A DNA stretch of 64,000 nt from Tetragenococcus halophilus subsp. halophilus DSM 20339 (GTDB lineage: Bacteria; Bacillota; Bacilli; Lactobacillales; Enterococcaceae), in assembly GCF_003841405.1 (NCBI RefSeq), contig NZ_PXYA01000001.1, forward strand, positions 124,001-188,000, in the 5' to 3' direction. Under the pieces are notes generated by a model. That model made no database searches, was not told where the DNA came from, and saw nothing but the letters and a program-made list of their open reading frames with translations. How positions within the stretch are numbered: position 1 is the first letter of the stretch; every line of letters starts with the position of its first letter. Position numbers and translations under genes: made by a program. Below, piece after piece: positions 21,126-37,562 of this stretch.

Positions 21126-21378
21126 CCCCCATGTTTGGCATATCAGGTAATGAAATCGCAAAACACTCCCTATCTTTGCAAACACAGGGAATTAAATCGA
21201 AGTACACTCCCCATCTTTGGCTCTTTTTGAACACTGTGTTCATTTATTTATCCAATTTTTCTAAAGATAGGTAAAGAAACTTAAAAATAACCCCTATCTT
21301 TAAGATATCAGGTAATGTAATGAAAAAACACTCCCCATCTTTATAAACATAGGGGGAACTTTTTCAGTCCTTATCTTT
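21126..21378. repeat. Degenerate 41-bp-period tandem array A
   Basis: Copies of a core resembling TCCCCATCTTT start their ATCTTT (or variant) at 21131, 21172, 21213, about 21254 (decayed), 21296 and 21337, i.e. steps of 41 bp with one of 42. A further partial core is at 21373. Between cores, the first and fifth units share ATATCAGGTAATG. Several units form small dyads such as TCCCT with AGGGA. There is no coding frame here. This fills the 21093-21485 gap between copA and nth. Confidence 0.72.
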
Positions 21379-21485
21379 AACATCAATAACTATAAATTAT
21401 TTAAATCTTCAAAATAAGAAGAAAGTTGACGAGTTCACAAAAAAAGGCTAGGATTTAAATATAAAAGTTAGAAGGGAAGGATCAT

Positions 21486-22181
21486 GTGTCTGAAGAAGTT
21501 TTATTAACCAATAAAGAAACGACAACAGTTGCTCAAGCCATTAACAAGCTCTATCCAAAATTAGGAACAGACTTAAATCATGAAAGCAATTTTCAATTGT
21601 TATGCGCTGTTTTATTAAGCGCACAAACAACAGATGTGTCTGTGAATAAAGTAACTCCTCAGCTGTTTGAAAAATTTCCAACACCTGAAGCTATGTCAGT
21701 AGCGTCTTTAGAAGATATTCAGGAAAATATTCGAAGTATTGGGTTGTACAAAAATAAAGCGAAATATTTAAAAAATATGAGTCAGATGTTATTGGAAAAA
21801 TTTGAGGGTCAAATTCCAGATAATCGGGAAGAGTTAACAACTTTACCTGGCGTGGGTAGAAAAACGGCCAATGTTGTATTGACAAACGGTTTTAATATCC
21901 CGGCTTTTGCGGTGGACACTCACATTAAAAGAGTGACAAGAAAACTCCATTTCGTTCCCCAAGATGCTTCGGTAGAAAAAGTGGAACAGATGATGTCAGA
22001 TAAACTCCCTGAAGACATGTGGTACCCAGCGCATCACTCGATATGGTTGTTTGGGCGTTATCAATGTATCGCACGTAAGCATGACCATAGTGAGTGTATA
22101 GAGCGTATCAAAGAAAACATGCCTGAAAATGAAATTGCTGCAAGTGCTCTTGAAAAGATGATTACAGAAATAGAGGGTTAA
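21486..22181 (+). CDS. nth: Endonuclease III, with incomplete Fe-S cysteine motif
   Basis: A 231-residue DNA glycosylase/AP lyase of base excision repair. The helix-hairpin-helix LPGVGRKTANVVL (about 119-131) contains the catalytic Lys, and AVDTHIKRV supplies the catalytic Asp (about 143). Most Nth proteins end with C-x6-C-x2-C-x5-C, binding a [4Fe-4S] cluster. Here only CIARKHDHSEC remains (two cysteines nine residues apart) and the last two cysteines are absent, so the cluster should not form. The catalytic residues are intact, so activity is still likely. The start is a GTG with GAAGGGAAGG upstream. Confidence 0.9.
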   Translation: MSEEVLLTNKETTTVAQAINKLYPKLGTDLNHESNFQLLCAVLLSAQTTDVSVNKVTPQLFEKFPTPEAMSVASLEDIQENIRSIGLYKNKAKYLKNMSQMLLEKFEGQIPDNREELTTLPGVGRKTANVVLTNGFNIPAFAVDTHIKRVTRKLHFVPQDASVEKVEQMMSDKLPEDMWYPAHHSIWLFGRYQCIARKHDHSECIERIKENMPENEIAASALEKMITEIEG

Positions 22182-22195
22182 GTGTCGAAATTTCA

Positions 22196-22933
22196 TTAGC
22201 TATTTGTTTCTTTATTATTAACATCATAAGTCAGCCATACTGTACTATCTTCTTTTGTTTCTACATTTTTCAATGTAAAGGAAACGGGTGCATCATCTGT
22301 TAAGCCCTCTTTTGTATCAAATAAAGATGGGGAAGTAGCTGAAGCATCTGCTGCAGGAGCAATCACAACACTAACTTCGTCGCAAAGGCCTGCTTGGATA
22401 AAGGACCAATTTAAGACACCGCCGCCACCCAACATGACGAGATCCATTTGGAAAAGATCATTTAACTTTTGTAATAGTAACTCCATATCTAAGGAATCTT
22501 TTCCAGCAATAACATAAGAAATATTTTTTTCTCTTAGAAAAGCTTTATATGCATTGCTTACTTTTTCCGTTAAGACTTCTAAAACTTCAGCAGTTGTATC
22601 ACCGTATTGTAGAGTATTTTTAGCCCATCCCAATTTTCCAGAGGTATCAATCGAAATGTAATATTTATTTCCAGTTGGTTCTGCGACAAAGTCTCCTGCA
22701 GGTACTTCAGGAGCTTGTTCGTCTAATTCAGGTTTTTTATAGTGGGTGAAATTATCATCCGTTGTTGTACGTCCGGATAACCAACCTTGATGTTTGTAAT
22801 GAGCGTTTTCTCCAAAAGCAACATTATAAAAGAACTCACCAGAACCTTTACTTTCTGGAATATCCATAAATTTACCGATAATTTTTCCATCAAGAGAAAC
22901 TTGCATGTGACAAAAAACGTAAGGTCTATTCAT
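22196..22933 (-). CDS. RibD C-terminal-like dihydrofolate reductase family protein
   Basis: About 245 residues of the RibD_C/DHFR-like fold, which uses NADPH to reduce pyrimidine or related substrates. Seen are VFCHMQVSLDGKIIG at the N-terminus (family: SLDGK/R), WLSGRTT, and DLVMLGGGGVLNWSFIQAGLCDEVSVVIAP, the NADPH-binding glycine stretch with the following motif. It is a stand-alone protein without the deaminase domain of RibD, so its substrate is unknown. Start at 22933 because GAGGAG precedes that ATG; a longer reading begins at 22966. It converges on nth with 14 bp between stops. Confidence 0.85.
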   Translation of the reverse strand: MNRPYVFCHMQVSLDGKIIGKFMDIPESKGSGEFFYNVAFGENAHYKHQGWLSGRTTTDDNFTHYKKPELDEQAPEVPAGDFVAEPTGNKYYISIDTSGKLGWAKNTLQYGDTTAEVLEVLTEKVSNAYKAFLREKNISYVIAGKDSLDMELLLQKLNDLFQMDLVMLGGGGVLNWSFIQAGLCDEVSVVIAPAADASATSPSLFDTKEGLTDDAPVSFTLKNVETKEDSTVWLTYDVNNKETNS

Positions 22934-23153
22934 AACTAAATCTCCTCTTTTCTTAAAGTAATTCAATTGTAGTGTACTACCTAGACTTCACTCTATGTCA
23001 ATTAACAAACTATGCCTAGCTTCAAATCAAATTTAAAATAACAGAAAATAGGAGCTACAAGGAATTTTTTTATTGCTTTATTATCTTTTTTGTTTCATTA
23101 TTTAGGTAAAATAAGTTGTAATGTAAAGGGAAACAAAGTCGGAGGGAAACTAT

Positions 23154-35543: not shown

Positions 35544-35572
35544 AAAATACTTTATTTTGAGGTGAAGAAATC

Positions 35573-37213
35573 ATGGCAAAAGATATTAAATTTTCAGAAG
35601 ACGCACGTCGTTCAATGCTTAATGGCGTAAGTAAATTAGCAGATACAGTCAAAGTAACTTTAGGCCCAAGAGGTCGTAACGTTGTCTTAGAAAAATCTTA
35701 CGGCTCTCCTTTAATTACAAATGACGGTGTAACGATTGCTAAAGAAATTGAGTTAGAAAATCGTTTTGAAAATATGGGGGCACAATTAGTTTCAGAAGTT
35801 GCTTCTAAAACTAACGATATCGCTGGTGACGGTACAACAACTGCCACTGTATTAGCACAATCTATTGTAAGTGAAGGTTTGAAAAACGTTACTTCTGGCG
35901 CTAATCCTTTAGGTATTCGTCGTGGTATTGAACAAGCAACACAAAAAGCTGTAGAAGAATTACAAAATATTTCTACACCAGTAGAATCAAAAGAAGCGAT
36001 TGTACAAGTTGGTGAAGTTTCTTCAGGCAGCAAACAAGTAGGTCAATATATTGCAGATGCAATGGATAAAGTTGGTAACGACGGTGTGATTACTATTGAA
36101 GATTCACAAGGTATTGACACAGAATTGGATGTCGTTGAAGGTATGCAATTTGATCGCGGTTATCTATCACAATACATGGTAACGGATAATGAAAAAATGG
36201 AAGCTGATTTAGATAGTCCTTACATTTTGATTACTGATAAGAAGATTTCTAACATTCAAGATATTCTTCCTTTATTAGAACAAGTTGTACAAGAATCTAA
36301 ACCACTATTGATTATCGCTGATGATATCGATGGTGAAGCTTTACCAACACTTGTTTTGAATAAAATTCGTGGAACATTTAACGTTGTTGCAACTAAAGCT
36401 CCTGGATTTGGCGACCGTCGTAAAGCAATGTTAGAAGACATCGCTGTATTGACTGGTGCTACAGTTATCACTGAAGATTTAGGACTTGAACTAAAAGATG
36501 CTACAATGGACTCTCTTGGTAAAGCTAATAAAGTAACTGTTGATAAGGACAATACAACAATTGTTGAAGGTGCTGGCGATTCAACAGCTATCGAAGATCG
36601 TGTACAATTAATTAAAAACCAAGTAGCTGAAACAACTTCTGACTTTGATCGTGAAAAATTACAAGAACGCCTTGCTAAATTAGCAGGTGGGGTTGCAGTA
36701 ATCAAAGTCGGTGCAGCAACTGAAACAGAACAAAAAGAACTAAAACTACGTATTGAAGATGCTTTAAACGCTGCTCGCGCTGGTGTTGAAGAAGGTATGG
36801 TATCCGGTGGTGGTACAGCACTAGTTAATGTAATTAACAAAGTAGCTGAACTAGATGCAGATGACGATGCTATCACAGGAGTTAACATCGTACTTCGTGC
36901 ATTAGAAGAACCGGTACGTCAAATCTCTGAAAACGCTGGTTTTGAAGGATCAGTTATTATTGAAAAACTAAAAAGCGAAAAATTAGGAATTGGTTTTAAC
37001 GCAGCAACTGGTCAATGGGTAAACATGGTTGATGCAGGTATTGTTGACCCAACTAAAGTTGTACGTTCTGCTTTACAAAATGCAGCATCTATCTCTGCAC
37101 TATTACTGTCAACAGAAGCAGTAATTGCAGATCGTCCAGATGAATCAGGCAATGATGCTGGAGCTGGCGCTCAAGGAATGGATCCATCAATGATGGGCGG
37201 CGGCATGATGTAA
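35573..37213 (+). CDS. groEL: Chaperonin GroEL
   Basis: A 546-residue chaperonin subunit, normal length. The sequence shows [27 protein letters not shown] (ATP binding), the apical domain with [16 protein letters not shown], and the flexible C-terminus [12 protein letters not shown]. It forms the double-ring cage folding cytosolic proteins with GroES. RBS GAGGTGA precedes the ATG. It shares the CIRCE-controlled promoter with groES and ends at a strong terminator. Optimal-looking codon use is consistent with high expression. Confidence 0.99.
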
Positions 37214-37222
37214 TAACTTTAC

Positions 37223-37259
37223 AAAAAGCCTTGGACTTTAAAATGTCCAAGGCTTTTTT
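37223..37259 (+). terminator. Terminator of groESL
   Basis: AAAAAGCCTTGGAC pairs with GTCCAAGGCTTTTT around an 8-base loop, with a T-run. Confidence 0.95.
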
Positions 37260-37398
37260 GCTGTGAATCGAAGCGTAAACAAAGAGATGAACAGTACTAG
37301 GGCGAGCGAAGGCGAGCCGTAGTGTCCTTTACCTTTTATCGTTGATAATACAAAAGAGCTATGCGAATTCGAATTGCTATATATTCAACATAGAAATT

Positions 37399-37562
37399 CC
37401 ATTTCCATGTGCTATCGTCGTTCATACAACATAAGTTTTCCATTTCCATGTGCTATCGTCGTTCATACAACATAAGTTTTCCATTTCTATGTGCTATCGT
37501 TGCTCATACAACATAAGTTTCCCATTTCTATGTGCTATCGCCGCTCATACAACATAAGTTTT
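37399..37562. repeat. 41-bp tandem repeat array C, 4 units
   Basis: Four units of exactly 41 bp start at 37399, 37440, 37481 and 37522, each reading CCATTTCTATGTGCTATCG (with C/T variants), then CGTTCATACAACATAAGTTT. Differences are a few transitions. The array lies in the convergent gap between groEL and an SDR gene. The flanking stretch 37260-37398 holds a GC-rich piece (GGGCGAGCGAAGGCGAGCC) and no gene. Confidence 0.95.

Follow-up and report, generated by a model that had tools for sequence, protein, structure and literature searches.

Regularly spaced intergenic palindromes have been described in several groups of bacteria, and it is with these that we compare three arrays of 41-bp units (A, B and C) lying in a 64,000-nucleotide stretch of Tetragenococcus halophilus subsp. 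halophilus DSM 20339 (contig NZ_PXYA01000001.1, positions 124,001 to 188,000 of the forward strand; hereafter the window). The host is a salt-loving lactic acid bacterium, and the arrays are also present in its relatives. According to the accessible sections of PMC2817692, the repetitive extragenic palindromes (REPs) and bacterial interspersed mosaic elements (BIMEs) of enterobacteria and pseudomonads are intergenic imperfect palindromes which form regular multi-unit arrays, are dispersed and vary between strains; BIME-2 arrays bind DNA gyrase, and REP palindromes are preserved by complementary mutations. BOX of Streptococcus pneumoniae appears in the available part of PMC3049150 as an intergenic repeat built of modules, among which boxB occurs in tandem in varying number. 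The Efa-1 family of Enterococcus faecalis is, in the accessible portion of PMC2267715, a 163-bp intergenic sequence comprising a pair of adjacent stem-loops. T. halophilus itself possesses clustered regularly interspaced short palindromic repeats (CRISPRs), of which repeat sequences are printed in the sections of PMC8249745 that were available.

A preliminary description of the window had proposed that A, B and C share a step of 41 bp without sharing a sequence, and knew of no named element with this property. The literature searched, which took in neither most subscription papers nor bioRxiv preprints, likewise yielded no description of such Tetragenococcus, 41-bp or palindromic arrays, and none was found in the accessible parts of two T. 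halophilus genome papers (PMC8249745, PMC8605565). The repeat system is real and sharply defined, no description of it is known within the reach of these searches, and a common 41-bp ruler across unrelated units is well supported. Tentatively, and stopping a little short of calling it probable, we would regard the arrays as a genus-specific, dispersed intergenic system of dyad sites, set at helix-phased distances for a predicted dimeric DNA-binding protein.

The 41-bp period and its enrichment

Array B (26798–27248, plus strand) consists of 11 units of 41 bp bearing the dyad ATTGGnGGnA-12-TnCCnCCAAT; Tandem Repeats Finder (TRF) placed it at 26796–27241 with a period of 41, 10.9 copies, 86% match and 0% indel, and also reported a 123-bp higher order. 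Array C (37399–37562, minus strand) has four 41-bp units, the minus-strand consensus of which contains the imperfect dyad ATAGCACAtAG..CTATGTTGTAT (TRF: 37397–37562, period 41, 4.0 copies, 94% match, 0% indel), and one extra dyad was scored immediately upstream. Array A was absent from the TRF output for the window; its best lag is 41 (44% match), and lags of 165 and 124 are among the window's strongest. The common step, the near-absence of indels (in B and C) and, essentially, the coordinates were therefore correctly described at the outset. Array A, however, is not simply decayed, as had been supposed, but is a composite element of the group which we call class I, with six 41-bp dyad units (21091–21378, minus strand; 288 bp in total). 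Three units stand on either side of a 42-bp centre (21214–21255, minus strand), which gives dyad spacings of 41, 41, 83, 41 and 41 and explains the decayed look. All six slots are accounted for, and a spacing-blind profile scan scored five of the six dyads. This architecture recurs at other loci and in other species.

The periods of tandem repeats were surveyed in samples rather than whole genomes, the stretches being chosen by place (TRF score of at least 60, period of at least 25; array B was counted as non-coding, though labelled coding through a spurious open reading frame, or ORF). Eight of the 11 non-coding arrays in 803.7 kb of Tetragenococcus DNA had a period of 41, the others having 33, 36 and 88. 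In 1.13 Mb from other Enterococcaceae the non-coding periods were 26, 26, 78, 110, 124, 261, 128, 121 (multiple 243) and 27, and no TRF row, coding or non-coding, had a period of 40–42. The predicted peak at 41 exists (8/11 vs 0/9; Fisher p = 0.001), and it persists when the window's own B and C are removed (6/9; p = 0.009). A local lag scan put 41 first in all three Tetragenococcus sets (6, 9 and 21 places, the last drawn from stretches near known arrays); in other Enterococcaceae, with many lags tied at 7–8 places, it was not one of the 14 commonest. Autocorrelation over all non-coding bases gave z values at lag 41 of 2.3 in the window's genome (G000; 2.60 Mb in 5 contigs), 0.1 in G099, G101 and G102, 7.3 in array-rich stretches and -1.3 in other genera; such a whole-intergenic average is too diluted to show 41 clearly. 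Here and below, G097, G098, G099, G101, G102 and G103 denote other Tetragenococcus genomes and L numbers denote fetched loci.

Symmetric dyad profiles holding no spacing information were then passed over 1.58 Mb of partly overlapping Tetragenococcus DNA. The profiles were partly trained on the scanned loci, so that the number of matches is not independent of them, as the distances are. Among 316 neighbour distances in 96 distinct arrays, 257 were exactly 41 and 284 lay within 40–42; further distances were 83 (11 times), 73 (4), 114/115 (4), 124 (1), 39 (2) and 43 (1). In the stretches chosen by place, 48 of 55 neighbouring pairs were 41 bp apart and five were at 73 or 83: 400 kb of G000 contributed 19 pairs (17 at 41, the others at 39 and 115) and 340 kb of G099, G101 and G102 contributed 36 (31 at 41, three at 73, two at 83). 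Array density there was 6 per 400 kb in G000, 6 per 160 kb in G099, 4 per 120 kb in G101 and 0 per 60 kb in G102. The same profiles found no dyad pair in the 1.13 Mb from other Enterococcaceae. Going by length alone, spacings of 41, 73 and 83 bp would correspond to 4, 7 and 8 helical turns at about 10.25–10.4 bp per turn.

Repeat families and their turnover

The units of A, B and C had been described as unrelated, and so they are, the best circular match of each pair being 18/41 against null means of 17.9–18.1. What had not been seen was that the units contain an inverted repeat and that their families have members at other places in the genome. Array B has nine more matches in G000, at eight places, C has four, and A has two at one place; a second A query gave seven matches, two of them overlapping inside the window array. 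Samples revealed a fourth family, D (CTAGAGCTACTTTG..), and the relatives carry family E (AGGACATA.., T. muriaticus) and a G/H group (ATTGAATAA / ATTGAGTAA). The consensuses of A, B, C and D are mutually unrelated (best circular match 18–19/41; shuffled null about 18). A relationship does exist between C and E (30/41 matches), and A, G and H intergrade, by eye. Independent tandem duplication is not supported: the arrays are members of families that are dispersed across the genus and share one dyad architecture. A dyad is present in every family from A to E, with best 10-pair Watson-Crick fractions of 0.63–0.81 against column-shuffle maxima of 0.52–0.67, the observed value being reached by none of 1000 column shuffles in each family. 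Arrays with other unit sequences at a 41-bp period were noticed at L085 6097–6181 (G102), L204 8254 and L207 15946; the latter two joined the G/H group and L085 is unassigned, and the families may outnumber those modelled.

Families B, C and D (class II) form plain arrays. Class I (A, E and G/H) includes composites in which three dyads, a gap and three dyads follow one another. Seven distinct elements had all six dyads scored: five of family A and one of G/H with a gap of 83, and a G/H element of T. muriaticus whose gap is 73. Family E reaches six dyads per element without showing the complete 3+3 arrangement; its gap is 73 in three elements and 83 in one. Training shifted the E profile in the direction of C, so that E counts take in C-like units. 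A leader common to class I elements was considered and rejected: L158, L166 and L153 share one of about 80 bp, to which no match was found at the other A elements fetched.

Among nine Tetragenococcus genomes, family A was matched in all (some matches being weak), B in eight and D in six. Among 295 genomes of the order, two first-look candidates being scored in each, B turned up only in Tetragenococcus. In searches of 96 genomes (six first-look candidates scored per genome, match counts being lower bounds), weak A matches outside the genus in seven (22–51 bp, E 1e-4 to 1e-3) and B matches in two (27–28 bp) were treated as chance. B was unmatched in plasmids and phages, and D in plasmids; Rfam 15 gave no match in the window above the gathering score.

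Comparison of orthologous sites reveals both replacement of one family by another and changes in copy number. At the site of array A, between the genes for a P-ATPase and a glycosylase, G000 and T. halophilus Tet1 and flandriensis all have A units, T. muriaticus and a metagenome-assembled genome (MAG) have E units, and T. solitarius has no units. At a second site (C2:25.8 kb in G000) four genomes have A units and T. muriaticus has TTATTCAAT units; G097 (L145) has three units there vs six in G098 and G000, its deletion of 165 bp being equal to 83+41+41. At a third site T. solitarius has A units, T. muriaticus has TTATTCAAT and G097 has TTACTCAAT. The B site has 11 units in G000, 3 in T. muriaticus, 4 in G101, 4 in T. 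solitarius and none in the MAG, and in two T. halophilus strains is a short gap with an ordinary terminator-like hairpin and no array. Copy-number differences between close genomes, the comparison which the preliminary description had called for, thus occur by whole units, as in a variable-number tandem repeat or minisatellite. By eye, L112 contains a block duplication relative to L111. There is also a breakpoint at the far end of this D array (L111 vs L112): past it the sequences of G000 and G098, which are close genomes, are unrelated, which may mean that arrays are placed at rearrangement junctions.

One class I element, 78–84% identical, is found in three different gene contexts (G000, G103 and G097). 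This, and the sites that are empty in one species and full in another, is what one might expect of non-autonomous mobile palindromes of the REP/BIME kind, moved by a hairpin-reading transposase and amplified in place; the arrays are, moreover, intergenic, palindromic, multi-unit and dispersed. We nevertheless think this origin quite unlikely, for the arms do not covary generally, no target-site duplication was seen by eye in two comparisons of empty and full sites, and no gene of the REP-associated tyrosine transposase (RAYT) type flanked by units was found in G000, the only genome tested. The six Y1 transposase genes of G000 are all IS200-type, with no dyad pair near any and no array within the fetched 1.5 kb on either side. 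Single C-type dyads score at four of the six. A link of these dyads with IS200 or RAYT was considered and rejected, the strongest C-type score lying in the IS200 coding sequence and not in the flank (seen directly in L240 and deduced in two further cases, whose coordinates are mirrored). The window's own IS200-type Y1 transposase lies at 41185–41604; three of the six G000 copies, including this one, have a 144-aa frame and the other three 156 aa.

DNA sites, RNA hairpins or an inherited length

The preliminary description had suggested a constraint on length itself, for example about four helical turns. The peak at 41 bp and the spacings of 41, 73 and 83 near whole turns agree with this, as does class I: its adjacent units are 41% divergent (1442 differences), yet 85 of the 87 spacings in the 36–46 range are exactly 41 and two are not (0.0014 per substitution), to be set against about 27 small indels per 586 substitutions in the non-coding flanks of orthologues. 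The constraint is strong for class I, and the class II data do not establish one.

The main rival is a passive satellite: one ancestral 41-bp palindromic repeat would have spread through the Tetragenococcus genome and diverged, whole-unit slippage and unequal recombination copying the length it inherited. The whole-unit changes between orthologues (as in L145), the block duplication in L112, the restriction of B to the genus in the survey described above and the relatedness of C and E would all follow naturally, but so exact a spacing among class I units of such divergence would not, nor would the 3+3 composition with a gap of 83 or 73 in several families, nor the lack of sequence relationship between A, B, C and D. 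We consider a passive satellite, and with it a length that has simply come down from one ancestor, somewhat unlikely; even if only length was inherited, it would still be striking that the letters turn over while class I fixes very few indels.

If the stems acted at the RNA level, variable pair positions should covary. With one strand counted per unit, A, B and D show an overall paired fraction equal to the column expectation, and C (0.50 vs 0.47) and E (0.53 vs 0.50) exceed it slightly; B pair 5–26 is under expectation (0.26 vs 0.38), and at D pair 9–19 standard pairing occurs in just 4 of 76 units. Families A, C and D have a balance of G.T and A.C mismatches, and in E these number 52 vs 39. 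When one three-unit stretch per family was folded on both strands, B and C behaved like shuffled sequences (z -0.8/-0.4 and +0.5/+0.4). By covariation, mismatch balance and folding, an RNA hairpin is rejected as the general principle.

A more restricted proposal is that hairpin arrays transcribed between convergent genes terminate transcription in both directions or stabilise 3' ends. With neighbours called by mechanical ORFs, 28 of 85 distinct arrays lie between convergent, 47 between co-directional and 10 between divergent genes, whereas 200 gaps of at least 100 bp (the G000 sample plus the window) comprise 28, 121 and 51, respectively; arrays are therefore commoner between convergent genes (p = 0.0005) and rarer between divergent ones (p = 0.011), in a count which leaves out 4 arrays at contig edges and in which orthologous arrays are non-independent. 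The hairpin that takes the place of B in the two array-less T. halophilus strains would fit this proposal, as would the stable folding of one A-family stretch described below. It is made very improbable by the B and C folds, by the lack of overall covariation in A, B and D, by the want of a U tract (by eye) and by the terminator-like hairpins which the genes before arrays A and C already possess.

Our best reading, as yet unproved, is that the ruler is imposed by a helix-phased protein. The unit letters differ while the dyads are mostly exactly 41 bp apart, which suggests a protein reading geometry, and half-sites with free symmetric positions look like protein sites. The dyads would be putative sites of one or more dimeric DNA-binding proteins, which may come together on a single face of the helix as a regular nucleoprotein complex. 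Length would be kept by selection on phasing, and letters would change through recombination among units or arrays and through coevolution with the protein; copy number would thus alter by whole units and sequence turn over, the geometry staying. The use is likely structural or regulatory, often at the 3' ends of genes and, by analogy, BIME-like.

A number of observations weigh against a phasing protein. In class II, 29 of 201 spacings are not 41 at 20% divergence (0.020 per substitution, not far from ordinary DNA), and they include 40 and 42, as a passive satellite might also produce. Small indels number about 4 per 281 substitutions in arrays vs about 27 per 586 in orthologous non-coding flanks (p = 0.03; counts from rounded fractions, pairs L158/L166 and L120/L127 being excluded as their flanks are not orthologous), a weak comparison, for the pairs are non-independent, some share genomes, and nine array gaps of at least 25 bp were counted apart. 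The profiles could miss a unit spoiled by an internal indel, and spacings of 33, 35, 45, 48, 66, 77 and 82 (once each) and 76 (twice) fit poorly. The helix argument draws on only two gap sizes, 73 and 83, both of which common descent could yield. Several arm sequences coexist in one genome and could hardly be read by one protein. Finally, there are signs of RNA structure: single pairs in A, C and E covary beyond all 500 shuffles, G.T exceeds A.C in B (184 vs 67, 75 of them at one inner pair), an A-family stretch (L017, outside the window) folds strongly as RNA (z -6.6/-8.2), and D folds on one strand (z -3.1; other strand -0.8).

A bolder form of the phasing-protein reading, which we regard as unlikely, is that the arrays make up a chromosome-wide helix-phased nucleoprotein scaffold. 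Its geometry (41 bp; 73 or 83 in the middle of 3+3) would be the conserved information, and at any given site the recognition sequence would be replaced rapidly and in concert from one species to the next; this would be the bacterial equivalent of satellite or centromere-type sequence drive, the binding protein coevolving. Were the phasing indeed imposed by a protein, the arrays would offer a clean genetic system for finding a new chromosome-organising or regulatory protein and for watching its specificity change between species. With only an inherited length behind them, the arrays are still candidate strain-typing loci for a genus of food fermentation.

Genomic setting and comparison with known systems

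Array A sits between two co-directional genes, those for a copper-type P-ATPase (E1-E2_ATPase, HMA; 18504–21029, plus strand) and an HhH-GPD glycosylase (endonuclease III-like; 21486–22181, plus strand); by eye, there is a terminator-like hairpin between the P-ATPase gene and the array. B and C lie between convergent genes, in agreement with the preliminary description. Array B is flanked by the genes for a methyltransferase (26002–26736, plus strand) and a zinc-binding dehydrogenase resembling quinone reductase (27266–28297, minus strand), C by those for GroEL (Cpn60; 35573–37213, plus strand) and a short-chain dehydrogenase (37594–38421, minus strand). The gene beside array B shows 93–95% protein identity to T. 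halophilus and 84–87% to other Tetragenococcus. Two overlapping spurious ORFs (157 and 160 aa) cross array B (26747–27273, minus strand) because 3 x 41 bp stays in frame, and might be misannotated as repeat proteins. A different dispersed repeat (ATGAACAGTACTAGGGCGAGC...) adjoins array C at 37287 and also occurs in L025 (11166–11383, 11445 and 15794), where, near the start of contig C1, it forms an 88-bp tandem (98% match). A short 16-bp tandem (CTCTCTTTTTTGTTTG, 2.7 copies; 28532–28573) lies upstream of a response-regulator gene.

Among described systems the CRISPRs share regular repeats with palindromes. Here, however, the whole 41-bp unit repeats, linker included, and there are no unique spacers; the CRISPR repeats printed for T. 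halophilus, so far as the available sections of that paper give them, differ by eye. Efa-1 belongs to the same bacterial family, and its 163 bp is near 4 x 41; it is set beside the arrays by description alone, and the 41-bp period was not seen in the 1.13 Mb from other Enterococcaceae. With BOX the arrays have in common a modular intergenic repeat and a variable number of tandem modules. The boxB module is about 45 bp long. The arrays differ in the 3+3 composition of class I and in a unit sequence which varies between families. No ends resembling boxA or boxC were seen: the flanks of 11 A elements had no common end by eye, and the leaders and tails of three elements were unmatched at others, the boxA and boxC models themselves not being compared.

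There is a likeness in form to REP and BIME, since the Tetragenococcus arrays also consist of intergenic imperfect palindromes, regularly spaced and in multiple units. Complementary mutation is not general here as it is among REPs, A, B and D being at the column expectation and only single pairs in A, C and E exceeding it. Bacterial intergenic repeats are classed by sequence; in this instance sequence fails, and spacing succeeds across a genus. The further difference from REP and BIME is that in Tetragenococcus, a Gram-positive genus, several unrelated palindromes share one exact period.

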